64,000 nucleotides of DNA, from contig NZ_CP081958.1 of assembly GCF_019823105.1 (NCBI RefSeq), positions 2,418,001 through 2,482,000 of the forward strand. Reading direction: 5' to 3'. Shown here piece by piece: positions 5,865 to 29,506 of the stretch. Source of the DNA: Halobaculum magnesiiphilum. Lineage in GTDB: Archaea > Halobacteriota > Halobacteria > Halobacteriales > Haloferacaceae. The first letter of the stretch is position 1. Each line of letters opens with the position of its first letter. A model generated the notes under the pieces. That model was not told the origin of the DNA. It worked only from the letters and a program-made list of their open reading frames with translations, and made no database searches. Position numbers and translations under genes: made by a program.

Positions 5865-7991
5865 ATGAGTAGCTACGACGACTCTCCGAGCTTCGAGCAG
5901 CACAACCGCGAGCGCCAGCGCTCGGAACTGGAAAGCGAGCGTCGGACCGCGATCCGTGAAGGGATCCGGAAGTGTTCCCGAGCCCTTGAACGGGGGCAAC
6001 GCCGGCACTACTTCTACACAGCGCGGAAACTCGCAGGCGAGATCTACCCGCTGCTGTTCGACGCTGACGAACGCACGCCGGATTACTTCGACGCTCATGT
6101 CGGCCATCGCGACGACTGGAACTTCGAGGCCGTCAACGAGTTCTACACGAACCCGACGCCGTACATCCGTGCGCTGTCGGAGGCCGACAGGCGACCCCGA
6201 CCCTCAGAGACGGTGTCGCTGCACACGGGCGGCTACGACACGCCAGAGGCCGCAGTCCAACAGACGGTCGCGGGTGCCCTCGCCGGCGCCAACGCCGTGG
6301 CGGAGTACGAGGACCTCGTCCCGCGGAACCTGAAGCGGCGGACGGATGCAGTCGGCTTCGCATGCAAACTCGGCGAGCACCTGAAGCGCCCAGAGATGAA
6401 CTTCGGCGACCCGGTCAACGCCGTCTCGCTCTCCTCGGGCAAGCTGAAGTCGTTCTACCTCGGTGGCACCGGCGGCGGCAAGTCCACGGCGGCCAGCCGC
6501 CAGTTCGAGGACTACTACCGCGAGACGATGGGCGACGGTCGGACGATCAAGTGCCTCGACTTCATCGGCATGGGCGAGGGCGAGAACGTCCTCTACGACG
6601 TGCCGCAGTCGCAGCCGAACCTCACCCACGTCCGCGAACAGATGGGCCTCGCGCCCACGTTCGAGGAGGACGACCTCGATCCGAAGCTCGACATCTACGC
6701 GCCGCTGTCGGCGACGGCAGACGAGATGAAACTCCCGCACGATAGCGAGTCAGGCGAGTGTCGCGTGATCCCGTTCACGATCCCTGCATCGGAGTTGTCT
6801 GAAAGCCTGCTCTCGTCGATCATCGCTGAGCGCGTGTCTCCGGACGAAGAGCGAACGATCCGTAGCGCCTACCGCGCCGTCGACGAGCGCATCCCGGACT
6901 GGTGTCTCGATGACCTCGCGGAAGAGATCCGGCGGCGCGATGAACTCAGCGACAAGCACAAGAAGGGGGCGATTCGTGTGCTGAAGCTGCTCCAGTCGTT
7001 CGGCTTCATCCGGACCCACACTGACGAGCACGCGATCGATATCGAGGAGATCTACACAACGCCCGAGCGGATCACCTCGTTCACGCAGGCGACGTGTGGG
7101 AGTGAACTCGCACAGTACGTCGTCATCGCGTACCTGCTCGACCAGCACTGGGATAACGGCTGGGAGCACCCGGAATGGCCTGACCGGGCGATCAACCTGC
7201 GGGAGCTCTCGGAGATCGCGATGCACCGCGAGCACCGCGGGAAGCTCGAGGCCGCGGTGCAGGCTGTCGTCGAGTTCATCATCCATCGGATCCACCAGAT
7301 GCTCCGGAAGAACCGTCACATCCACACGTCGGTCTGTGCAGACACGCAGGACGCCACAGAGGTCGAAAAGGCAGTCCGCAAGCGGTTCAACCGCTACGTC
7401 GTCTTCGGTGGCTCGGACGAACTCATCGAGAAGGTGTTCCGTTGGGCCGGTCAGAGTGGCTGGCGGGCGCTCAAGAACAACGTTACCGAGCGAGCGGGGG
7501 AAGCCGGGATCGTCAGCGGGACCGGCCCGTCGGCAGGCGACGCCGACCTGTGGGGAATCTCGCCTGTTCGTCTCGTCCCGCCGAGTTGGCACCACTACGA
7601 CACGGACAACGAGGACCACGACTCCGGCTGGCACGCCCGCGTCCTCCTTCTCGACGACGAGGAACTCCGGTATCCCGACTGGGACACCAGTATCCCGCCG
7701 CACATGGAGATCACGACTTCGATCGGCGACGGCGACGGGAAACCAGCCGACGAGCGGCAGATGGAAGCTGAGCGGGCACAGGCACGTGCGAGCCACCGTC
7801 GAGAGGCGCGTGAGCGGAATGCAAAGGGTGAGAGTGTCCGGATGATCCGTGATGCGCTCCCTGACAACCCGAATACGGGCAAGCCCTACTCTATCGGCGC
7901 GATCTCGAACTGGACGAACGACATCAACAAGGGTGAGGGCATCCAGCAGCTCCAAGACGATCAGATAGGCGGCGGTGAACAGGCTGCATGA
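5865..7991 (+). CDS. HerA/FtsK-like DNA translocase ATPase of a mobile element
   Basis: The 708-aa protein has a P-loop GGTGGGKST at about residues 200-208, followed by CLDFIGMGEGE as a possible second strand. In the HerA/VirB4 superfamily the Walker B strand usually ends in D-E; the best match here is INLRELSEIA near residue 445, where the Asp is replaced by Arg. Near the C-terminus, RNAKGESVRMIRDAL followed by YSIGAISNW resembles the helix-turn-helix of serine resolvases, which would give the ATPase its own DNA contact. Such ATPases pump DNA into virions or across membranes. It has a 31-nt leader after the previous gene, so it may have its own promoter. Confidence 0.7.
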   Translation: MSSYDDSPSFEQHNRERQRSELESERRTAIREGIRKCSRALERGQRRHYFYTARKLAGEIYPLLFDADERTPDYFDAHVGHRDDWNFEAVNEFYTNPTPYIRALSEADRRPRPSETVSLHTGGYDTPEAAVQQTVAGALAGANAVAEYEDLVPRNLKRRTDAVGFACKLGEHLKRPEMNFGDPVNAVSLSSGKLKSFYLGGTGGGKSTAASRQFEDYYRETMGDGRTIKCLDFIGMGEGENVLYDVPQSQPNLTHVREQMGLAPTFEEDDLDPKLDIYAPLSATADEMKLPHDSESGECRVIPFTIPASELSESLLSSIIAERVSPDEERTIRSAYRAVDERIPDWCLDDLAEEIRRRDELSDKHKKGAIRVLKLLQSFGFIRTHTDEHAIDIEEIYTTPERITSFTQATCGSELAQYVVIAYLLDQHWDNGWEHPEWPDRAINLRELSEIAMHREHRGKLEAAVQAVVEFIIHRIHQMLRKNRHIHTSVCADTQDATEVEKAVRKRFNRYVVFGGSDELIEKVFRWAGQSGWRALKNNVTERAGEAGIVSGTGPSAGDADLWGISPVRLVPPSWHHYDTDNEDHDSGWHARVLLLDDEELRYPDWDTSIPPHMEITTSIGDGDGKPADERQMEAERAQARASHRREARERNAKGESVRMIRDALPDNPNTGKPYSIGAISNWTNDINKGEGIQQLQDDQIGGGEQAA

Positions 7992-17918: not shown

Positions 17919-18938
17919 CTATGAGAGTTTGCGGAGAATGTTCAAAGCGCCTTGTTCCGGTGCTTTGCGGTGTCCCTCTCCCGACTCCTCGGACTCCTCG
18001 GAAGTTGAATCAATGAACCACTCATACCCTCGTCGGAGACAGTCGGCATTGCTGTCTTGTGGCTCCCAGTTGAGGTCATCCCGGGCTCGGGAGATATCAA
18101 AGTAGAAGTCCTTGTCTATTGTTTTGTAATGGAACGTCGTGAGGGGGCTATAATCGAGAGTATCCAACGCCCACATCCCGAATTTTGTTGGAAGCCGAGG
18201 GAGGCTGGTCACCGTAGACCCCGTACCAGCGTGTGAAATCAAGCTTTCATACGCCTCACGCATGGTGCCAAACTCGTCAGTCCCGATGTTATATATCTGA
18301 CCGATAGCAGTCTCAGAGTCAGCCGCAGCGATCGCAGCGGTAGCGATATCGCGACCGGACACCATCTGAAACGTGTTGTTACCACTCCCGACGAGGTACA
18401 CACGTCGCCCCTGGCTGATCCACTCGAAGAGGATTTGAAAGATCCCAGCTCGGCGCTTGCCGACGACCGTCCGGGGTCGGATCACCGTGACATCCACGTC
18501 GGTTGCCTGAAGCGCCACTTCGTCGGCTTTTAATTTGGATTCGCTATACGGCCCCTTGGGCTGTAAGAGGCTATTCTCCGTGATCGGCAACTGATCAAGC
18601 GAATAGACGCTACTCGATCCCATATGGATGAATCGGTCCACAGACGCATCCTGAGCGGCGTTCATGGCCTGACGTGTCCCCTCGACATTCACCTGTCGAA
18701 ACCGATCACCGGCTTTCGTCACCGGAACGAGCGCGACGTTATGGTAGACGGTGTCGACACCGTCCATCGCCTGCCGAATGTCGGTCGGATCGCGAATATC
18801 CCCCTCAACGTACTCAACCTGGTCGGCGCCGATTTCTGGAGGGTGTTGGTCGAATACACGGACGTCTGCACCTCGTTTCAGCAGTTGTTCCACAATATGG
18901 CCGCCTACGAACCCAGATCCACCCGTAACCAGCTTCAT
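17919..18938 (-). CDS. NAD-dependent epimerase/dehydratase (extended SDR)
   Basis: The 339-aa protein opens with the Rossmann motif TGGSGFVGGHIV (residues 5-16) and has the SDR catalytic pair as SSSVYS with PYSESK (Tyr-x3-Lys) near residues 108-134. Extended SDRs of this type act on nucleotide sugars or on lipid-linked sugars. The last 30 residues are a Glu/Ser-rich tail. The gene is the last of a five-gene minus-strand operon and its ATG overlaps the flippase-like gene by 4 nt. In this context it may epimerise or reduce the sugar made by the UbiA-type enzyme. The exact substrate cannot be told. Confidence 0.8.
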   Translation of the reverse strand: MKLVTGGSGFVGGHIVEQLLKRGADVRVFDQHPPEIGADQVEYVEGDIRDPTDIRQAMDGVDTVYHNVALVPVTKAGDRFRQVNVEGTRQAMNAAQDASVDRFIHMGSSSVYSLDQLPITENSLLQPKGPYSESKLKADEVALQATDVDVTVIRPRTVVGKRRAGIFQILFEWISQGRRVYLVGSGNNTFQMVSGRDIATAAIAAADSETAIGQIYNIGTDEFGTMREAYESLISHAGTGSTVTSLPRLPTKFGMWALDTLDYSPLTTFHYKTIDKDFYFDISRARDDLNWEPQDSNADCLRRGYEWFIDSTSEESEESGEGHRKAPEQGALNILRKLS

Positions 18939-19894
18939 ACGTCAACCTCCTCCGGGGATGATTGAATACTCTCTGATGTTCGTCGATACATCAGATACAC
19001 AGACAGTGCGAGTACGGCGACGAACCAGAGCGTTGCTGCCCGGATAATCAACGTTGCACTGGCTGCTGTTGCTTCTCCGGCACCGAACACGATTAGGAAC
19101 GCAGTCATCGAGCCTTCGGTTACACCGAGTCCGCCTGGCAACAAACTCACAGCACCAAGAATACTGGACAGTGCAAAGACGAAGGCCGCGGCGATCATGG
19201 TGACATCAGCTCCGAATCCTTGGAGAACGAGCCAGAGGCCGATGCACTCTAACCCCCACGAAAAGACACTGAGCACTGTCGTCACGCCCAGCGGGCGGGG
19301 GCTGAGCAGAGAGCGGGAGTTCGTGTACAGATTTCGCAACGCGTCGGTCTTCGTTCGGAGAATCGGGACAGATTCACTCAGCCCAATGACCCAATAGGAC
19401 CCTCGTTCATACTGGAGCAGGAGAATTCCCGCGGAGATCGGAATCAGAAACAGCAGCAGGATGAGTGGTGACCGGTCGAATGCAAGGATCCCAAGCAGAC
19501 TGATCAGCAGGACTCCCAAGAGATCGGTGATCCGCTCAGTGGCGATAACCGGCATCGTTCTACTCAGGGGCGTGCCCTGCTCGTCACGAATGAGCCAACA
19601 CTTCCACATCTCACCGAGTTTACCGGGAGTCATAATCATGATTAGTCCGCTCCCAAAGATGTAGAAGCTCTTCCGGAGTGGGAGGTCAACGTCCACCTCC
19701 GAGAGAAGGTATTCCCACTTGACGAAGCGGAGAAATTGGTTTCCAAGAGTGAGGCCAAGTACGACTGGAAACAGCGTCCATTCGAACTTGCTGAATGCCT
19801 CGAGTAGGCTATTCAGATCAGCATAGATGCTGAGTGCAAGCGTTACGGCTAATCCGAACACGACGAACTGCCAGAGATTCCTTTGAAGATCCAT
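18935..19894 (-). CDS. Flippase-like membrane protein (UPF0104/LPG synthase N-terminal family)
   Basis: The 319-aa protein has about eight transmembrane segments and motifs of the UPF0104/TIGR00374 family: RFVKWEYLL, TPGKLGEMWKCWLI and SLLPGGLGVTEGSM. Archaeal members are often next to polyprenyl-sugar genes and are suspected lipid-linked sugar flippases. Here it sits between a PHP phosphatase gene and an epimerase gene with overlaps of 1-4 nt, which supports a role in moving the lipid-linked product to the outer face of the membrane. Direct proof of flippase activity for this family is limited. Confidence 0.8.
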   Translation of the reverse strand: MDLQRNLWQFVVFGLAVTLALSIYADLNSLLEAFSKFEWTLFPVVLGLTLGNQFLRFVKWEYLLSEVDVDLPLRKSFYIFGSGLIMIMTPGKLGEMWKCWLIRDEQGTPLSRTMPVIATERITDLLGVLLISLLGILAFDRSPLILLLFLIPISAGILLLQYERGSYWVIGLSESVPILRTKTDALRNLYTNSRSLLSPRPLGVTTVLSVFSWGLECIGLWLVLQGFGADVTMIAAAFVFALSSILGAVSLLPGGLGVTEGSMTAFLIVFGAGEATAASATLIIRAATLWFVAVLALSVYLMYRRTSESIQSSPEEVDV

Positions 19895-20574
19895 CAGTCT
19901 CGGAGGCGGTTATACAGTTTCGCGCATTTCGTCCCGGCGTGCGATACGATTGAGCCGCGGCCTCCTACAGGAGACACACGGCCGTCCCGGAGAGATTGCT
20001 TCACCGGATCAGCCAGCGATTCACCTGCTCGAGCATCAGACGGGATCTCGAGATCTGTGTACGCTGTCCCGATCTCGTGGGCGAAGTGCGAATCGCTGCC
20101 GCCTGTTTTGGGGATCTCATATTGCTGGGCAAATTCGAGAGCTCGTCGGTTGTAGGCCGGTCTGACGCATCGAGAATTGATCGTCTCCACCGCGTCGAGG
20201 ACATCCGTATACTCAGAGAGTGAAGAAAGGCCACTTCGCATCGCGTCGAACGGGTGGGGTGCGAGTGCAAGCCCTCCCTGGTCGTGGATTTCCTGAATGA
20301 CCGTCCGCGGAGACTGCCACGGTTCAATCGGCTCCTCAAGAAAGAGCCCGATGATTTGCCCGTCTGGGGTATCGACTTCTTCGGCGGAGATCACGAGGAA
20401 CTGATCACTCGCTGCCCGCCGTGCGGGACCGACACCATCCATCGTGTTGTGATCAGTAATAGCTACACCATCGAGACCGACAGATTCGGCCCGTCGGACT
20501 AGCGTTTCCGGGGCCATCCAGCCGCACTCCGGAGAACGATTCGTATGGGTCTGGAAATCGATTGAGAGTTTCAC
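19894..20574 (-). CDS. PHP-domain phosphoesterase
   Basis: The start is taken as GTG 20574, which overlaps the stop of the UbiA gene (GTGA), rather than an upstream ATG inside that gene. The 226-aa product has all PHP metal motifs in order: DFQTHTN (H-x-H), AITDHNT (D-H), an SAEEV glutamate, APHP and GSDSHFAHE (D-x-H). PHP enzymes hydrolyse phosphate esters using two or three metal ions. Next to a phosphoribosyl-lipid synthase, the natural guess is removal of the 5-phosphate from the lipid-linked phosphoribose. That assignment rests on context. Confidence 0.8.
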   Translation of the reverse strand: MKLSIDFQTHTNRSPECGWMAPETLVRRAESVGLDGVAITDHNTMDGVGPARRAASDQFLVISAEEVDTPDGQIIGLFLEEPIEPWQSPRTVIQEIHDQGGLALAPHPFDAMRSGLSSLSEYTDVLDAVETINSRCVRPAYNRRALEFAQQYEIPKTGGSDSHFAHEIGTAYTDLEIPSDARAGESLADPVKQSLRDGRVSPVGGRGSIVSHAGTKCAKLYNRLRD

Positions 20575-21473
20575 AGTGTGACCCCCAGCTGTGGATAGTA
20601 CAGAATCGCCGAGAGCGTGAGACCCCACAATGCGAAGTTGGTCAGGAGCGGCCGGTCGAGGATCAGCTTCACTGGTTCGCTGTCTCCCTTCACTCCAACT
20701 GTTAGATAGACGTAACGGAAGACGGCGTAGAACGCAAACGGGATCGTGAGCATCATCAGTAGATCCCGGGCGAAGAACGTATACAAGGCATATGTCATCA
20801 GAAGCATTGTCGCGACACTTCCCAAGAGCAGTTTGAGGATCTCAGGAGAATACCCTTCGAGCGAGCTTCGAATCGCGGCTGGGTTGTCCACCTCTTGGTA
20901 CTCCCCCCAGCGTTTCGAGACGCCGAACATCATCGCTGCCAGAAACATGGAGAGAATCAGCCACGGGCTCATATCGGACGCCGTGAGGACGACCCCCGCG
21001 AGCGCTCGAAGGACGAAACCAGCACTGATACTAAACAGGTCAGCGAACATATACTGCTTCAAGATAGTACTATACAGGAAGTTCTGGGCAACGTAGACCC
21101 CGATAATAACCAGGAATGCCTGATTTAGCTGCCACGAAAGATAGGCGACCCCCACATAGAGAACGAGTGCCCAAACGACGGCGAGCCAAACCGAGACCTG
21201 TCCACTCGGGATTGGACGATGTTGTTTCCGGGGATGCTGTCGATCCTGCTCACGATCACGGAGGTCGTTGATAATATAGGTCCCTCCAGCTGCTCCGGAG
21301 AACAAAACGACACCAAGCGTCGTGTTGATCCACGCTGTCAACTCAAGAGCCGACCCGGAGAAGACGACCGGGATGTAGAGGATCAACTGCTTGTACCACT
21401 GCCACGGCCGGAGTGTGTACACCAGGCCACTGAGAGTTGAATCGCCGACAGATTCGAGATCCGGTGCAATCAT
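20571..21473 (-). CDS. UbiA-family prenyltransferase, decaprenyl-phosphate phosphoribosyltransferase-like
   Basis: The 300-aa protein has about nine membrane spans. The first UbiA motif reads NDLRDREQDRQHPRKQHRPI, and the tail after the Asp motif (QHP-K-RPI-SG) matches the subfamily of mycobacterial decaprenyl-phosphate phosphoribosyltransferase rather than quinone or heme enzymes. That enzyme joins PRPP to a polyprenyl phosphate. The gene is followed by phosphatase, flippase-like and epimerase genes in one overlapping operon. The alternative is a digeranylgeranylglyceryl-type or other UbiA enzyme, but its motif context would differ. Confidence 0.75.
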   Translation of the reverse strand: MIAPDLESVGDSTLSGLVYTLRPWQWYKQLILYIPVVFSGSALELTAWINTTLGVVLFSGAAGGTYIINDLRDREQDRQHPRKQHRPIPSGQVSVWLAVVWALVLYVGVAYLSWQLNQAFLVIIGVYVAQNFLYSTILKQYMFADLFSISAGFVLRALAGVVLTASDMSPWLILSMFLAAMMFGVSKRWGEYQEVDNPAAIRSSLEGYSPEILKLLLGSVATMLLMTYALYTFFARDLLMMLTIPFAFYAVFRYVYLTVGVKGDSEPVKLILDRPLLTNFALWGLTLSAILYYPQLGVTL

Positions 21474-21482
21474 GCAGATCAG

Positions 21483-22481
21483 CTACAACTCGCCGTGCTC
21501 TCGCGCCCACTCAACGCCCTCGCGCATGCCTTCAGTGAGATCAGTTGGGGGTTCCCAGTCGAGTTCGTCCATCGCCTTCGAGGGGTCACACGCGATATGG
21601 CGCGACATCTCGCCAGCGACGTGGATATTCTGCTCATACAATCCCAAATTACCGAGCGTCACATCGGCAATCTCCATGAGGCGCGAGATAGGAGTCGGGA
21701 CGTAGAGCGGACGGAGATCGTCCGCTACGCCAAGCAGATTAGCAATCGTTCGGTAGATGTAGTTTGTCGTATACGGTTTCTCATCCGCGATCCAGTATGT
21801 CTCATTTTTGGAGACATCTGGCTGGTTCATAACCGAGATCAACGCCTCGACAAGGCTCGGAACGTACGTCATACTCCGGAGATTCATCCCGTTCCCGAAG
21901 ACGATCGGATGGCCGCCTTTGATCATGTCCATCAGGCGGTTCATCCGGTCGGGCTGTCGCGGTCCGTAGTACCAGCAGGGTCGGACGATGGTATAGTCCA
22001 GGCCGAATTCCTGATGATACCGCCGGACGTGTTGTTCGGCCTCGTACTTCGACTCGCCGTAGTTACTCTCGGGCTGACACGGCATCTCCTCCGTCATCAG
22101 CTCGTTCGGGGAATCGTTGAATCCTTGAGCGGCGTTCGATGAGACGTAGACAAACTGCTCGATATCATAGTCGTTCGCGACCTCGAGCATGTTCTTGGTA
22201 CCATCAGCGTTGATGTCGAAAAACATGTCAGAGCCGAACAGATCCGGAGGGTGAATGATACCCGCACAGTGGAAGACGACGTCAACATCATCACTGAACG
22301 CAGCATCCAGCGTCTCCGGTTTCAGAATATTTCCTGAATGCTCCGTGATGTCGTAGGGCTCTAACTCTGAAGTATCCTCTCTCGGAAGGACGAGACAGTG
22401 AACGTCGTGCTCGGTTTCGTCCAACTGTTTTACGAGCTCTGTCCCCAGCCACCCAGGTGCACCTGTGATTAATATCTGCAT
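21483..22481 (-). CDS. NAD-dependent epimerase/dehydratase (extended SDR)
   Basis: The 332-aa protein begins ILITGAPGWLGTELV, an extended-SDR Rossmann motif, and has VSSNAAQG followed by NYGESKYEAE (Tyr-x3-Lys) near residues 115-150. It is the first gene of the minus-strand glycosylation operon, with its promoter in the AT-rich gap beyond 22481. The substrate is probably a sugar carried on a nucleotide or lipid. It is clearly diverged from the second SDR of the operon (17919-18938), so two different sugar conversions are likely. Confidence 0.8.
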   Translation of the reverse strand: MQILITGAPGWLGTELVKQLDETEHDVHCLVLPREDTSELEPYDITEHSGNILKPETLDAAFSDDVDVVFHCAGIIHPPDLFGSDMFFDINADGTKNMLEVANDYDIEQFVYVSSNAAQGFNDSPNELMTEEMPCQPESNYGESKYEAEQHVRRYHQEFGLDYTIVRPCWYYGPRQPDRMNRLMDMIKGGHPIVFGNGMNLRSMTYVPSLVEALISVMNQPDVSKNETYWIADEKPYTTNYIYRTIANLLGVADDLRPLYVPTPISRLMEIADVTLGNLGLYEQNIHVAGEMSRHIACDPSKAMDELDWEPPTDLTEGMREGVEWAREHGEL

Positions 22482-22828
22482 TTGTTGTGGAGTAATATTG
22501 ACTTGGCTTCAATACACCGGTTTCAATATATCTATTGATAGTATCAGCATATATTTATGAGGTTGGCCGCGGTTCAGGATGAAATAACATTTGACCTCCG
22601 ATTCAACGTCAACGGGGGACACGGTTACTGATCTCAGCGAGTAACCATTGCACGGTGCTTGTGCAGTGGGATATCTCAAGAACGGATGGATTCAACGCTT
22701 TCCCAAATTAACTGAGCAGCACTCACGACTCATCGAGTGACTCGAAGACTTCGTTCTTATTCGGCGCGTCGATACTTGACTCCTGCCGCCACTGTCATAG
22801 GCATACTCGTAGCCCTCTCGCAGCGCCA
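22482..22828 (-). promoter_or_regulatory. AT-rich gap with the probable promoter of the glycosylation operon
   Basis: The first 80 bases (22482-22562) are markedly AT-rich (runs such as atatatctattgatag and catatatttatgag) and would hold the promoter for the minus-strand operon. From about 22690 a short minus-strand frame and fragments on the + strand look like broken coding sequence, but none is intact. The gap marks the boundary between the glycosylation island and the next accessory block. Confidence 0.35.
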
Positions 22829-24265: not shown

Positions 24266-26248
24266 TCAGCCGGGGATCTCGAACTCGGGGCGTGCGTGCT
24301 CCTCGATGTCGATTTCGAAGCCGGCGATCTCGACGGCGGTCTGGATCTGCTCGGCGGACCACGTCGAACCGGTGCCGATCATCTTGCGGACGCGATCGAC
24401 GGTCTCGTACACGTCGTTGCCCTCGAAGGTCCGTGCAAGGCGCTCGACGGCCTCCGAGCGGGCCTGCTGGGCGTCGTGCTGCAGTAGCGTGTTCGCCTCG
24501 GCGACTCGCTCCTGACCGTGATCATCGCCCCACCGGACGCGACCGGGGAAGTGACCGGGAGCGTTCCCCGCGTCCTTCCACGCGTGAAAGCCGTCCTGCA
24601 CGACCTCGGCGGCGTTCACACCGCTGGCGACACCTTCGTCCGGATGCGGGAGACACGAGCCGAGCTGTAGTTCGGCGCCGTCGTCGGCGACGCGGGCGCC
24701 CCACTTCTCGCGCCACGACTCGAAGGCATCGCCGGAGGGTCGCTCGTAGGCGTCTTCTTCGAGGATCGACTCCGCGTGACGGAGACTGTGCTCGATGCTG
24801 TTCTGCACGTCCGTGACGGTCCGGCCGATGATCTCCTCGAACTTCTCACGGAGGTGCTGGGAGGCGAACGTGATCGTCCCCTGTTGGGACTCGACGGCGT
24901 CGCCCATCCGCTTCAACCAGCGGTACACTGTCGTCTCGCTCGTCTCGCTCTCCTCGGCGAGATCGTCGTAGTGAGCGCGGCCGCCGTCGGCGACGAGCTG
25001 CTCGGTGAGCGACTCGTCGGCGGGGGTCATGCGGGAGAACGCCCGCACGAGCATCGATTCTTGCGACCGTTCGATCTTCGGCGTCGGGTCGTCGTGGAGG
25101 TCGAGATCTCGAGGCGTCTCCGCTGGCGAGAAGTGCCAGTCCTCGACGAACGTCGACGCGCTGTCGTTCGAAGATCCGAGCGAACTCGGCGCGATCGGGA
25201 CGCCGGCCCACGTGAGGATGTTGACGAGTCGTTCTTCGAGCTCCTCGACGAGCGCGTGTCGGCGGTCCCACGCGACAGTCTCGCGGTTGATCCGGATGTC
25301 CGAGACCTTCCCCTGAAAGAGCAGTCCGAACTTCGGGTGGTACAGTGGATCGTCGGGGTCGGAGTGCTCGTGCTCGGGATCGTAGCACTTCGCTTGCGTC
25401 CCGAGCCCGTGACCGGGGATCATCGACGACGCGGCGTCGGCGTTCGAGACGAGCCGGAACATGGCACCGCCGGAGTCGCCGTTGTCCCAGAAGTACGCTC
25501 CCTTCGAGGTGTCCTGCGTCGACAGCAGCATCGCGAGCTGGTGCAGGGCGCCGCCCATCCGCGTGAGCTTCTCGGCGAGCGATCGCGAGAGCCGCACGTA
25601 TCGCTCGTGGACGGAGACGTTGCTCGTCGACAGCGGGCGGGTGAAGTACTCGCTCGACCAGTCGTCGTCAAGGGCGTTCGCGAGCGCCTGACAGGCGCAC
25701 CGCAACCAGTGTGGGTACTCGTCGAGTTCGAGGTTCGACCCCTGTATCTCGACGTTGAACCCGGTGTCGGGCTGATCCGCGTGGTCGAACGGCGACGGGA
25801 TCGCATTCCCGGTCTCGACGTGGGTCATACCGGCGTAGCGCGGCCGGATCAGGTAGTTGGCCTTCCGCTCGCCCGCGCCGTCGATCTGGATGCGCGGCTC
25901 CCACATCGACCGGTCCTGCGGCAGATCGAACTCGGGACGCGGCGCGATCTTCCCCGCGTAGTCGCCGTCGTCGTCGGTACCGTAGTACAGCGAGACCTCG
26001 ACCTGCTCGCGCGCATCCTCGTCGACGGGGTCAGCCTCGGAAACCGGGTGCGGGTCGACGCCGTCGAGCCAGGGGAACCGCGCGTCGAAGGACGTACCGC
26101 CGTCGAACGCGCGGATGAACCGACACAGTGCCCAGTAGGGCGCCATGTTGTCCGCGATCGAGCCCTGCGTCGCGTAGTTCAGATTCACGCGAGCCTCGTG
26201 CGGACAGGTGCGGATGATCGCGGCGTCGGGGTTCGGACGCGTCACCAT
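24266..26248 (-). CDS. Large accessory protein of unknown function with C-terminal wHTH and helical region
   Basis: The ATG at 26248 is chosen because the codons before it are Arg/Pro-rich read-through of the upstream genes. The product is 660 aa, soluble and acidic. About residues 430-480 (MTPADESLTEQLV through VYRWLKRMG) resemble a winged helix-turn-helix. The C-terminal 180 residues are mostly charged helix. The first 400 residues show no recognised motif. Proteins of this size and layout recur in haloarchaeal plasmids and proviruses and could be replication or recombination factors, but no catalytic motif supports that here. It is the last gene of the overlapping operon. Confidence 0.6.
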   Translation of the reverse strand: MVTRPNPDAAIIRTCPHEARVNLNYATQGSIADNMAPYWALCRFIRAFDGGTSFDARFPWLDGVDPHPVSEADPVDEDAREQVEVSLYYGTDDDGDYAGKIAPRPEFDLPQDRSMWEPRIQIDGAGERKANYLIRPRYAGMTHVETGNAIPSPFDHADQPDTGFNVEIQGSNLELDEYPHWLRCACQALANALDDDWSSEYFTRPLSTSNVSVHERYVRLSRSLAEKLTRMGGALHQLAMLLSTQDTSKGAYFWDNGDSGGAMFRLVSNADAASSMIPGHGLGTQAKCYDPEHEHSDPDDPLYHPKFGLLFQGKVSDIRINRETVAWDRRHALVEELEERLVNILTWAGVPIAPSSLGSSNDSASTFVEDWHFSPAETPRDLDLHDDPTPKIERSQESMLVRAFSRMTPADESLTEQLVADGGRAHYDDLAEESETSETTVYRWLKRMGDAVESQQGTITFASQHLREKFEEIIGRTVTDVQNSIEHSLRHAESILEEDAYERPSGDAFESWREKWGARVADDGAELQLGSCLPHPDEGVASGVNAAEVVQDGFHAWKDAGNAPGHFPGRVRWGDDHGQERVAEANTLLQHDAQQARSEAVERLARTFEGNDVYETVDRVRKMIGTGSTWSAEQIQTAVEIAGFEIDIEEHARPEFEIPG

Positions 26249-26250
26249 CG

Positions 26251-26379
26251 TCAGGTGCCCCGCTGGCCGTCCACGAGCGCCGCACACGAGGCGCAGGCGT
26301 CGACACCGCACGGGAGGCGGCGGACCCCACGAGACGAGCCACAGGCGTAGCAGCGGCGCTCGTCGGCAGCGGCGCTCAC
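26251..26379 (-). CDS. Tiny zinc-finger protein
   Basis: The frame encodes 42 residues beginning at GTG 26379, which overlaps the previous stop (GTGA). It has a CYACGSSRG knuckle, a lone cysteine and then CASC, the four-cysteine pattern of a small zinc ribbon. Its stop is two bases before the ATG of the 660-aa gene. It is too short for a catalytic role and may be a DNA- or protein-binding adaptor. Confidence 0.5.
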   Translation of the reverse strand: MSAAADERRCYACGSSRGVRRLPCGVDACASCAALVDGQRGT

Positions 26380-26501
26380 GCGGCCTCACCCCCGAACCGC
26401 GAGAAGTGCTCACTCCGCGTCCACGGAACGACACGCGCACCGCCGCCGCCGTAGGCCCACACCGTCGCCCCGAGCAGATGCAACCGGCTGATCGCGGTCA
26501 C
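26376..26501 (-). CDS. Tiny protein of unknown function
   Basis: A 41-residue frame starts at GTG 26501, overlapping the stop of the methyltransferase gene, and ends in GTGA shared with the next gene. The product has a Gly-rich middle (AYGGGGARVV) and no cysteines. The support is the unbroken chain of 4-nt overlaps and the Shine-Dalgarno sequence ggaggtga before the start; no homology can be judged. Confidence 0.4.
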   Translation of the reverse strand: MTAISRLHLLGATVWAYGGGGARVVPWTRSEHFSRFGGEAA

Positions 26502-27049
26502 CGGCCGTCACCTCCGACGAGCTGCTCTTGCTCGGTCTCGCGATGGATGTGCCCGGCACGGAAGACGGTCGCGCGCCGCGACAGTACGTCGAGGACGGTG
26601 CCGGGCGCGTCCCCGAAGACGAACACGTGTGAGGCGAACGGCGCGCTGTCGTCGCCGTCACCGAACGCGAGCCGCGAGTCGAGCATCGCGACGGCCTCGG
26701 CGTGCTCGACGGCGTCCTGCCACCAGTCGGTGCTGCTGTCGCCCTTCACGAGGTAGCAGATCGAGTCGACGGCGGGGCGCTGCAGTTCGGAGACGACCTT
26801 CGGCGTCCACTCGTCCATCGCGGAGTACGGCGGGTTCAGCCACACGTCGCCGTGCCACGGTTGGGCGAGCCCGTCGTCGTCCTCAGTGAACGCCTCGTCG
26901 GCGATCGGGGAGCGCTCCGCACCGGCGGCGGCGTCGAGGTCGAACCCACCAACCGCTTCGGCGAGCGGGCGGACGAACTCGGGCGGCGTCGACCACTCGT
27001 CGGTCTCCGACGAGGTGAACAGGTCGAGATCGAGACTGGTGTTGCTCAC
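26498..27049 (-). CDS. Phage-type DNA N6-adenine methyltransferase (Dam family)
   Basis: The 183-aa protein has the features of small phage adenine methyltransferases: DEWSTPPEFV at the start, FDLDAAAG (SAM-site Asp) and the catalytic WLNPPYS. Its length is normal for the family. These enzymes methylate adenine in element or host DNA and often protect against restriction. It lies in the same operon as a second, unrelated adenine methyltransferase. The GTG start overlaps the upstream stop and is preceded by a perfect ggaggtga. Confidence 0.85.
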   Translation of the reverse strand: MSNTSLDLDLFTSSETDEWSTPPEFVRPLAEAVGGFDLDAAAGAERSPIADEAFTEDDDGLAQPWHGDVWLNPPYSAMDEWTPKVVSELQRPAVDSICYLVKGDSSTDWWQDAVEHAEAVAMLDSRLAFGDGDDSAPFASHVFVFGDAPGTVLDVLSRRATVFRAGHIHRETEQEQLVGGDGR

Positions 27050-27720
27050 CGGCCGTCACCTCCGTCACGACTCTGGATCTGACGCGCCCACCGATCGAAC
27101 CAGTCACGTTCCGCGTCTCGCTCGTAGCAGTCGCGACAGCGGAGCGCCGAGTGATCGGTCTCACCGTGGGTCGGGAAGACGCGGACGTGAGCGGGCTCGT
27201 CGCAGTCCTTGTCGTCGCAGGTGAGCGGCTCGCCGCCGTCCGTGATCAACGTGGACTGCTCGGCAGTCGCCGCAGCAACGCGCTCGCCGAGCCACGACAT
27301 CTGTTCGCCGATCCCGCCGAGGTCCAGTTGCTCGAACGGGAACGAGACGGACGGCTCGATACCGGCGTGAAACGTTTCGCGCTCCCGCAGCGGGTCGACG
27401 TACGAGCGCCCGGCGAGCACGATGATCTCATCGCCAGTGTCGGCACCGCGGGCGACGAGCCACTCGATCAGTTCCATTCCGATGCGATGCGCCAACTGGT
27501 TCAGGCGGTGGTCGTCGAGATCGTCGATGTGGGTCTCGTAGGGATCGATCTCGGCGTCGGGCTCGACGAGGCCGTGTTCTGCCGAGAGGATCGCCCACTC
27601 GTCGCCGACGGTCTCGGCGTACGCGCGCTTCTTCGCGAAGTACGTCGACGTGTATAGGTCGCGGGCCTCGGAGCGCTCGTCGCGCTTCGCGGCGCCGCAG
27701 CCGACGAGGACGTACTTCAC
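27046..27720 (-). CDS. DUF6884-like protein
   Basis: The 224-aa protein shows the pattern I associate with DUF6884: LVGCGAAKRD, DLYTSTYFAKKRAYAE, WAILSAEHGLVEPDAEIDPYETHI and a later VLAGRSYVDPL. About residues 165-205 carry a four-cysteine zinc module (CDDKDCDEP and CRDCYERD). The biochemical role of the family is not established; it is frequent in phages and mobile elements near DNA-modification genes, as here. Both ends overlap neighbours by 4 nt. Confidence 0.7.
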   Translation of the reverse strand: MKYVLVGCGAAKRDERSEARDLYTSTYFAKKRAYAETVGDEWAILSAEHGLVEPDAEIDPYETHIDDLDDHRLNQLAHRIGMELIEWLVARGADTGDEIIVLAGRSYVDPLRERETFHAGIEPSVSFPFEQLDLGGIGEQMSWLGERVAAATAEQSTLITDGGEPLTCDDKDCDEPAHVRVFPTHGETDHSALRCRDCYERDAERDWFDRWARQIQSRDGGDGR

Positions 27721-28595
27721 CGCTGCTCACCTCCGTCGGTCGCGGGGAGGGTCTGTTGAGCAACGACGGACCACATCGGCGCCGCCGCGGGATCGTACGA
27801 GCAGTACAGGCGCTCCGGCCTGTCGCTGTTGTCGAGTGAGGCCGAGCGGTTGTAACTCCGCTCAACGACTGCCGTCGCGAGGTCTTCCAGACCCTCCGGC
27901 GGCTCCGAGTAGGAGACGATCCACTCGCCGTCGACGGCCCGGAGCGTCTCGACGAGGCCGGCGTGGTCGAACAGCGGCCCGCGGTAGTAGTTGTCCTTCT
28001 CCTCGGTGTACGGCGGGTCGCAGTAGAACAGTACGTCGTCGCCGTCGTACCGCTTGAACTGCTCAGAGTAGTCGCCGCACTCGATCGCGACGCCCTTGAA
28101 GCGGTCGCGGAGGAGCTGGATTCGCTCGGGAACGCGAGCCCATATCTCGGACTTCTGCGGCCCCTTCCGCGGCGTGTCGGTCGCGAACCCGGCGCGCTGT
28201 CCGTAGCGGCCACTGAAGCTGGCGTACCGAAGGAAGACCCACCGAGCAGCCTCCTCAACGAGATCCTCGCCGAGGTCCTGCTCGGGGTCGCGGAACTGTC
28301 GCGACCACTCGTTGTACAGGCCGCGCGAGTATGGGATGTCGCGGACCGCCTCGGCGAGCTCGTCCGACCGGTCGCGGACGGCCTCGAAGAATCGGACGAC
28401 GTACTCGTCGCGGTCGTTGAAGATCTCCGCACGACTCCGCGGTTTGTTCAGCAACACCCCCGCAGCGCCGCCGAATGGGACGACGAACGTCTCGTGGTCG
28501 CAGAGGTGCTCGACGACCCACGGCGCGAGGTACGTCTTGCTCCCGATGTACGGGAACGCCGAGACCTTCCGTCCCGATCGCTCGAACCCGTTCAC
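27717..28595 (-). CDS. D12-class DNA adenine methyltransferase (Dam-like)
   Basis: The 292-aa protein has the D12-class motifs in order: FPYIGSKTYLAPWV (SAM binding), FGGAAGVLLNKP, EIFNDRDEYVV and the catalytic FYCDPPYT near residue 190. Such enzymes methylate adenine, often in GATC-like sites, without a linked nuclease. No restriction gene is seen beside it, so it is probably a solitary modification enzyme of the element. It starts at a GTG overlapping the upstream gene. The family call is firm; the recognition site cannot be read from sequence. Confidence 0.85.
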   Translation of the reverse strand: MNGFERSGRKVSAFPYIGSKTYLAPWVVEHLCDHETFVVPFGGAAGVLLNKPRSRAEIFNDRDEYVVRFFEAVRDRSDELAEAVRDIPYSRGLYNEWSRQFRDPEQDLGEDLVEEAARWVFLRYASFSGRYGQRAGFATDTPRKGPQKSEIWARVPERIQLLRDRFKGVAIECGDYSEQFKRYDGDDVLFYCDPPYTEEKDNYYRGPLFDHAGLVETLRAVDGEWIVSYSEPPEGLEDLATAVVERSYNRSASLDNSDRPERLYCSYDPAAAPMWSVVAQQTLPATDGGEQR

Positions 28596-28915
28596 CGCTG
28601 CTCACCCCCGTCGGTCTCGACGCGATCAGCGCCGTCGACGACTTCGCGCCACCCCTCGACTTCGTCTGCAGGGTCGTAGACACGAGCGACGACGGCGGTC
28701 TCGATCGACCCGTCGTCGGCCACGTCGATCCGTTCCAAGACGTTCTCGCCGGTGTGGTCGTAGGAGTGCGAGAACTGCGTGCCGCAGCCGCGACAGACGA
28801 GCACGTCGTCGCGCTCGTAGTACAGATCGCCGTCGCAGTCGGGATCGGTACAGCCGCGGAACGCACCGTCGGAGTAGTTGTCCGCGTCGCCGACGGTGAC
28901 GATCGGGACGCTCAC
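28592..28915 (-). CDS. Small zinc-ribbon protein
   Basis: The 107-aa product has two cysteine pairs, CTDPDCDGD and CRGCGTQF, that form a zinc ribbon in its first half. The second half is acidic and includes VVARVYDPADEV. It starts at a GTG within the upstream stop and ends with the TDGGEQR sequence common to this operon. The function is unknown; it may bind DNA or a partner protein. Confidence 0.6.
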   Translation of the reverse strand: MSVPIVTVGDADNYSDGAFRGCTDPDCDGDLYYERDDVLVCRGCGTQFSHSYDHTGENVLERIDVADDGSIETAVVARVYDPADEVEGWREVVDGADRVETDGGEQR

Positions 28916-29166
28916 CGTCCGTCACCTCCGTCAGTCCGCGCAGCACCGACGCGCGCGCCCTGGTTGAATGCCGGGTCGTCGTCGGGGTCGACGTGCGTGT
29001 CGACGACCTTCCCGGCTGCGGAGCCGCGGCTAATGCGCGGCATGGAATCGCAGGCGGGACAGCGGTGTACGTCGTTATTCCCGTCGCCGAAGACGGCGGC
29101 GAACCGGTCGGTGACGTGCGCCCCGCAGTGCAGGCAGCCGGACTCGTCCGACCCGAGGCGCATCAT
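28912..29166 (-). CDS. Small zinc-finger protein (DUF7563-like)
   Basis: The ATG at 29166 overlaps the stop of the first gene of the operon (ATGA) and is preferred to a GTG at 29175. The 84-aa product has CLHCGAHVTDRFAAVFGD and HRCPACDSM, a four-cysteine fold found in many small haloarchaeal element proteins, then a disordered tail ending TDGGDGR. The likely role is nucleic-acid or protein binding. Confidence 0.6.
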   Translation of the reverse strand: MMRLGSDESGCLHCGAHVTDRFAAVFGDGNNDVHRCPACDSMPRISRGSAAGKVVDTHVDPDDDPAFNQGARVGAARTDGGDGR

Positions 29167-29270
29167 GGGCGACACACCCCGTGATCGAGCGCAGGACAGC
29201 GCTGATCGTGCTCGGTGATCTCGGTGCCGCAGAACTCACAGACGAGCACGTCGGCGGTGTCGACGCTCAC
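29163..29270 (-). CDS. Tiny zinc-finger protein, first gene of the operon
   Basis: A 35-residue frame from GTG 29270 contains CEFCGTE and later single cysteines (QRCPA, GVCRP), the pattern of a minimal zinc knuckle. Its stop overlaps the next ATG by 4 nt. It is short, but the overlap and the cysteine spacing support a real gene. It would head the whole minus-strand chain down to 24266. Confidence 0.45.
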   Translation of the reverse strand: MSVDTADVLVCEFCGTEITEHDQRCPALDHGVCRP

Positions 29271-29434: not shown

Positions 29435-29506
29435 TGGACTCGCTGGGATTTGAACCCAGGGCCTCTTCCTTGCGAAGGAAGCGATCTACCACTGATCTAC
29501 GAGCCC
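29435..29506 (-). tRNA. tRNA-Ala (anticodon CGC)
   Basis: The minus strand folds into a full cloverleaf of 72 nt: acceptor gggctcg with cgagtcc, a D-arm, the anticodon arm cttcc-ttcgcaa-ggaag with anticodon CGC, and a T-arm with ggttcaaatcc. The acceptor stem carries the G3:U70 pair that marks alanine tRNAs. CCA is not encoded. The accessory block on its 3' side suggests the gene served as an integration target and was kept intact. Confidence 0.95.

Follow-up and report, generated by a model that had tools for sequence, protein, structure and literature searches.

Five consecutive gene junctions on the minus strand, lying within 2.4 kb of the window (the whole 64,000-nucleotide stretch of DNA that was analyzed), read GGRGGTGA-N6-GTGA. 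We are fairly confident that these junctions are the translational-coupling joints of a chain of accessory genes, and that single genes are exchanged there; as a rule, homology breaks off at the GTGA. The five sites had been picked out in an earlier note on this DNA and are all present at the coordinates it gave, all on the minus strand. Four further genomes of the genus (G002, G003, G004 and G006) contain related chains, referred to in the following as sister elements.

The overlapping genes are chained on the minus strand between window positions 24266 and 29175, in the order DUF7563, ZnR, D12, DUF6884, Dam, p41, Zf42, Rep:

28912–29175, minus strand: DUF7563 zinc-finger gene (Pfam PF24444, 2.6e-18)
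28592–28915, minus strand: gene for a 107-aa zinc-ribbon protein (ZnR)
27717–28595, minus strand: D12-class N6-adenine DNA methyltransferase gene (Pfam PF02086, 2.6e-19)
27046–27720, minus strand: DUF6884 protein gene (Pfam PF21818, 2.2e-33)
26498–27049, minus strand: Dam-like DNA methyltransferase gene (Pfam PF05869, 7.7e-22; PADLOC orphan methyltransferase)
26376–26501, minus strand: p41, a 41-aa gene (G003 copy 95% identical)
26251–26379, minus strand: Zf42, a 42-aa zinc-finger gene
24266–26251, minus strand: DUF7845 (Rep-Arvir) replication protein gene (Rep; Pfam PF25227, 8.3e-84)
29435–29506, minus strand: tRNA-Ala (CGC), adjoining the chain

PADLOC matched D12 to its type II/orphan methyltransferase models. 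The 107-aa ZnR protein occurred, among its closest homologues, only in the window genome (G000), G002 and G003. In the DUF7845 gene, an ATG at 26254 is a possible alternative start.

DUF7845 is Rep-Arvir, the replication protein of betapleolipoviruses and many archaeal integrative elements (PMC13107129). A gene for tRNA-Ala, tRNA-Thr or tRNA-Pro adjoins three of the four sister elements, while none was found near the element in G006. All five genomes encode a tyrosine recombinase on the same strand about 18–37 kb from the chain: 18–27 kb from their own DUF7563 gene in the sister elements, whereas the nearest PF00589 match in the window genome lies ~36 kb from DUF7563, outside the window. These recombinases are presumably the elements' own. 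Because of the DUF7845 protein, the tRNA genes and the nearby recombinases, the chain is most likely part of the accessory arm of a mobile element, although no convincing att repeats of the tRNA end were found in the window or near the distal integrases. Rep-Arvir elements such as SNJ2 (PMC13107129) share the DUF7845 protein, the tRNA-gene neighborhood and a tyrosine recombinase nearby, but the best matches in phage records are only 25–30% identical. In IMG/VR, pattern scans confirmed no relatives of the Rep protein or of DUF6884, and for Dam there was only a 38% match.

The junctions, with a sixth, imperfect one, are as follows:

28912–28932, minus strand: DUF7563/ZnR junction, tgacGGAGGTGAcggacgGTGA; tgacGGAGGTGAcggacgGTG(A)
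28592–28612, minus strand: ZnR/D12 junction, cgacGGGGGTGAgcagcgGTGA; cgacGGGGGTGAgcagcgGTG(A)
27717–27737, minus strand: D12/DUF6884 junction, cgacGGAGGTGAgcagcgGTGA; cgacGGAGGTGAgcagcgGTG(A)
27046–27066, minus strand: DUF6884/Dam junction, tgacGGAGGTGAcggccgGTGA; tgacGGAGGTGAcggccgGTG(A)
26498–26518, minus strand: Dam/p41 junction, cgtcGGAGGTGAcggccgGTGA; cgtcGGAGGTGAcggccgGTG(A)
26376–26393, minus strand: p41/Zf42 junction, imperfect, GGGGGTGAggccgcGTGA

Each canonical junction has a full Shine-Dalgarno sequence (GGAGGTGA) in the last codons of the upstream gene, 6 nt before a GTGA in which the upstream stop overlaps the next start by 4 nt. We take this Shine-Dalgarno sequence to pair with the anti-Shine-Dalgarno of haloarchaeal 16S rRNA; a search of the genome assembly for the exact 16S 3' end gave no match. 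Together, the Shine-Dalgarno sequence and the GTGA overlap fix 12–13 of the 21 junction positions. The 6-nt spacer makes the Shine-Dalgarno sequence read GGA GGT GAN, so the GG(D/E) protein ends are forced; the ends are GGDGR, GGEQR, GGEQR, GGDGR and GGDGR, just as had been claimed. The spacers themselves fall into two subtypes, CGG(A/C)CG (CGGACG, CGGCCG, CGGCCG) and GCAGCG (twice). The proposal of a shared 21-bp cassette thus held in so far as near-identical junctions do recur, but with two spacer subtypes they are not copies of one cassette.

The anatomy carries the hallmark of termination–reinitiation, namely a 4-nt stop/start overlap with a Shine-Dalgarno sequence inside the upstream gene. 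In Haloferax volcanii, overlapping gene pairs were shown to be translationally coupled, and a Shine-Dalgarno sequence in the upstream gene often boosts restart, although such sequences are not used at 5'-UTRs (Huber et al. 2019; PMC6728339). The pairs tested there have the same 4-nt overlap and internal Shine-Dalgarno sequence; here, by comparison, five occur in a row in a mobile element, with shared spacing and a partly shared spacer. The claim that the repeats couple translation is therefore well supported by the junction anatomy and by these similar junctions. By analogy, ribosomes finishing one gene would restart on the next, and the proteins of the chain are most likely made by restart along one transcript. 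Since both the Shine-Dalgarno sequence and the GTGA are encoded in the end of the upstream gene, each junction may be regarded as a socket owned by that gene. A gene landing with its start on the GTGA would be expressed at once, because the restart signal sits upstream, and it would have to carry its own tail for the next gene to be expressed.

In the window, GGAGGTGA occurs nine times where 2.5 occurrences were expected, and four of the nine lie at these junctions. The pattern GGRGGTGAN5GGTGA had eight matches in the 3.73-Mb genome, five of them here, and none when reversed as a control. As chromosome background we took 40 stretches of 20 kb from this chromosome (800 kb in all), where GGRGGTGA stood at the junction spacing in 3 of 299 candidate 4-nt overlaps, all three with ATG starts. 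A junction of the GGRGGTGA type was seen in 85 of 119 genomes of the family, and this type of overlap junction is common in haloarchaea.

The gene orders of the sister elements were as follows:

G002: DUF7563, ZnR, X125, C5 methylase, DUF6884-Dam fusion, p80, .., Rep
G003: DUF7563, ZnR, C5 methylase, DUF6884, p41, Zf42, Zf82, Rep
G004: DUF7563, s195, .., Rep
G006: DUF7563, DUF6884, p71, Zf42, Rep

Across these four elements, D12, the C5 methylase, Dam, zinc ribbons and DUF6884 have been gained, lost or swapped singly at junctions; the exchanged genes are mostly DNA-methylation and small zinc-finger genes. The earlier note had suggested looking for rearrangement at these sites in relatives, and exact single-gene gain, loss and swap is what we found. 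A single junction takes DUF7563 to DUF6884 in G006, as against three junctions and two extra genes in the window. Zf82 is present in G003 and missing in G006, between similar GGTGACG..GTGATCG stretches. The junction after DUF7563 is canonical also in G003 and G004 and one base off in G002 and G006; that after ZnR precedes different genes in G002 and G003. The DUF6884 junction is the same in G006 and is followed there by p71, and the Dam junction in G002 has a GCAGCG spacer and is followed by p80.

Base-by-base comparison placed the breaks in homology. Where the left gene is the same, identity spans the Shine-Dalgarno sequence, spacer and GTGA and drops directly after: for ZnR in the window and G003, successive segments matched at 12/12, 4/4, 7/8, 6/6 and 4/4 positions, then at 3/12. 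Where the right gene is the same, identity starts at the GTGA, not at random points in the block, as for DUF6884 in the window and G006 (12/12 and 30/30 from the GTGA on; spacer 2/6). The junction therefore normally belongs to the upstream gene, with the GTGA as the exchange point. In six of eight comparisons the 6-nt spacer was kept with the upstream gene (5–6 of 6 bases), while at the flanks of X125 and Zf82 it matched at only 3/6. The Dam and p41 boundaries are exceptions without a clean break at the GTGA: the window and G002 have different Dam tails, and some upstream sequence seems to have come along with p41. Almost every new junction shows the 6-nt spacing and the 4-nt overlap exactly and is free of scars. 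Non-canonical junctions were also used (Zf42, p41 in G003, and the C5 methylase/DUF6884 boundary), so exchange does not depend on the complete 21-nt block.

Another question raised previously was whether the junctions are more alike than a Shine-Dalgarno sequence and an overlap demand. There appears to be a modest excess (P 0.005–0.04, depending on the null). With 114 family-junction spacers from outside this element type as reference, the five spacers do not stand out in total similarity (P=0.23), but having two exact pairs is unusual (P=0.015). In the 26 nt before the GTGA, the five junctions resemble one another more than do quintets drawn at random from independent junctions already bearing the same Shine-Dalgarno sequence and overlap; this post hoc test gave P=0.0055 (49 junctions), P=0.0048 (42) and, with the strictest set of 26, P=0.037. 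The excess is concentrated in two repeats on either side of D12:

27716–27744, minus strand: 29-nt direct repeat at the 3' end of D12, 27/29 identical to 28591–28619
28591–28619, minus strand: 29-nt direct repeat on the 5' side of D12 (repeat family D5)

The sequence GGTGAGCAGCGGTGA is rare: of the 391 genomes of the class only 28 contain it, and its two copies in the window genome both flank D12. Dam is flanked by a 19-nt identical run. A D12 on a viral contig, 77% identical, ends otherwise and is without the TDGGEQR tail; the tail was therefore probably picked up within, or close to, an element of this type. Convergence does occur as well: one chromosomal gene, unrelated to these, has the ending ATDGGERR, a tail nearly the same as that of ZnR, with a nearly identical junction, and unrelated junctions also have GGEQR tails. 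Haloarchaeal elements in general do not support a rule that spacers match within an element, as the spacers of two other chains (G009 and G112) are all different; exact spacer pairs numbered 3 of 15 in this family and 0 of 9 in other chains. In IMG/VR, only five within-contig spacer pairs were available, two of them from the same virus, and none matched exactly, too small a set to be informative. Most of the junction identity is demanded by the Shine-Dalgarno sequence, overlap, reading frame and codon bias. The extra identity around D12 probably reflects duplication of the junction when the gene was inserted by general recombination between short stretches of identical sequence.

That rearrangement occurs at the junctions is thus confirmed; that the repeats themselves are the shuffling machinery is possible. 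One explanation is that the repeats are homology blocks and that recombination between copies, either of the RadA type or by copy-choice while the DUF7845 protein replicates the DNA as a rolling circle, moves genes and leaves the inserts flanked by direct repeats. The repeats around D12, with both copies of a rare sequence beside it, and the identical 19-nt run around Dam fit this, as do the single DUF7563/DUF6884 junction of G006, the presence or absence of Zf82 between similar stretches, and the precedent of the mycobacteriophages Island3 and Brujita (PMC3029335). Crossovers across a whole block would, however, often carry the downstream spacer along, whereas the spacer is bound to the upstream gene in most comparisons, is only half matched at X125 and Zf82, and differs throughout the G009 and G112 chains; exchange at non-canonical junctions also speaks against it. 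Genes do move at the joints, as the earlier note had supposed, but the repeats as drivers are weakly supported, and we consider this explanation doubtful. Less probable still is a fuller version, in which each junction serves both as translation socket and as short recombination block, and single-stranded DNA from rolling-circle replication would let modification genes drop in and out of an integrase-independent cassette array.

The contrasting possibility, which we rate a little short of an even chance, is pure convergence: illegitimate recombination moved the genes, only products with intact neighbors survived, selection tuned the junctions, and the repeats were uninvolved. Breakpoints at the GTGA are expected under such selection, which alone could yield exact single-gene exchange, and the unremarkable total spacer similarity and the near-identical tails of unrelated genes point the same way. 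It accounts less easily for the two exact spacer pairs and long shared runs (P 0.008–0.015), and for new junctions that are almost always exact and scar-free. A site-specific system of the integron type, with the junctions as integrase recombination sites, would explain single-gene units between similar sequences, as in integron cassette arrays, and tyrosine recombinase genes do occur in the neighborhood of the elements. We regard it as very improbable: the recombinases are 18–37 kb away, no integron integrase is adjacent, no inverted repeats were found around the array, and the Shine-Dalgarno sequence and overlap account for the shared sequence. Candidate attC hairpins were rejected because junction RNA did not fold better than its shuffled versions (z −0.39 to 0.90), leaving no structured attachment sites. 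The array had been described as lacking an integrase; this is incorrect in that a tyrosine recombinase is encoded in all five genomes, but there is no sign of its action at the junctions. Under the preferred reading, coupling joints at which single genes are exchanged, the short identical stretches may still aid general recombination or copy-choice in rolling-circle replication.

Lambdoid phages are known to have short conserved boundary sequences where genes meet (Clark et al. 2001, on HK620; Susskind and Botstein 1978), as recounted in PMC3029335 and PMC3945230. According to these accounts, the lambdoid junctions resemble ours in having coupled genes, short shared boundaries and single genes replaced there in relatives; ours differ in the archaeal host and element, in shared sequence that is mainly Shine-Dalgarno and GTGA, and in a recombination role that is putative. 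In gene 68 of Island3/Brujita, the insert repeats the 3' end of its upstream neighbor, and a relative has one recombinant copy (PMC3029335). D12 likewise repeats the tail of the ZnR gene, and Zf82 resembles the published case less clearly, but the Island3/Brujita repeat is about 50–60 bp as against 25–29 nt here, and a sister without D12 but with the same neighbors was not seen, a C5 methylase being found in the neighborhood of ZnR instead. No description of such exchange junctions in haloarchaeal elements was found in the open-licence literature searched. The chain is a new, archaeal example of a boundary-sequence mosaicism that is already known.

These five elements offer a compact natural experiment in the mosaicism of archaeal elements, with single-gene differences whose boundaries are resolved to the base. 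They suggest that the boundaries of a coupled chain are good exchange points, because each gene carries the restart signal for the one that follows it, so that any gene starting at the GTGA would work at once. Exchange of DNA-modification genes would fit a quick change of methylation pattern against host restriction.

A second element in the H. magnesiiphilum genome (G000) adjoins tRNA-Ala(GGC) (locus L030, approximately 6832–7290; contig 1 near 145271). Its junction shares 18 identical nucleotides with that between the DUF7563 and zinc-ribbon genes of the window chain and links different genes. In G003, of the same genus, and in G009, which carries other junction chains, junction-bearing elements occur as several near-identical copies per genome:

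Positions of junction-bearing element copies
G003, contig 1: 50910, 2766923, 2788816, 2810916
G009, contig 1: 26462, 2738792, 2767700

In locus L322 of genome G160, from a different family, GGGGGTGAGCAGCGGTGA joins a small zinc-ribbon gene, whose protein ends in GGEQR at the C-terminus, to another D12-like methyltransferase; both the gene pair and the junction type are the same as in the window.

Close homologues of the C5 methylase of the sister chains (73%) and of the window D12 (77%) were found together, separated by one gene, on a 47.7 kb viral IMG/VR contig (L002), a possible donor pool.

To the left of the chain, the G+C content is 53–57% at window positions 18000–22500, compared to 62–72% for the chain itself and the flank on its right. 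Taken with the recombinase gene still further left (G000 contig 1, 2410567), this stretch may represent foreign DNA in or next to the element.

In G002, of the same genus, DUF6884 and Dam are fused in a single 574-residue frame (L075, 12988–14712), separated by ≈220 residues that have no Pfam match and, judged by eye only, resemble a methyltransferase. The window DUF6884 (27046–27720) matches PADLOC PDC-M57A at 2.5e-25 and, weakly, DpdC of a 7-deazaguanine DNA-modification system; these sequence matches suggest that it, too, may be a DNA-modification gene.
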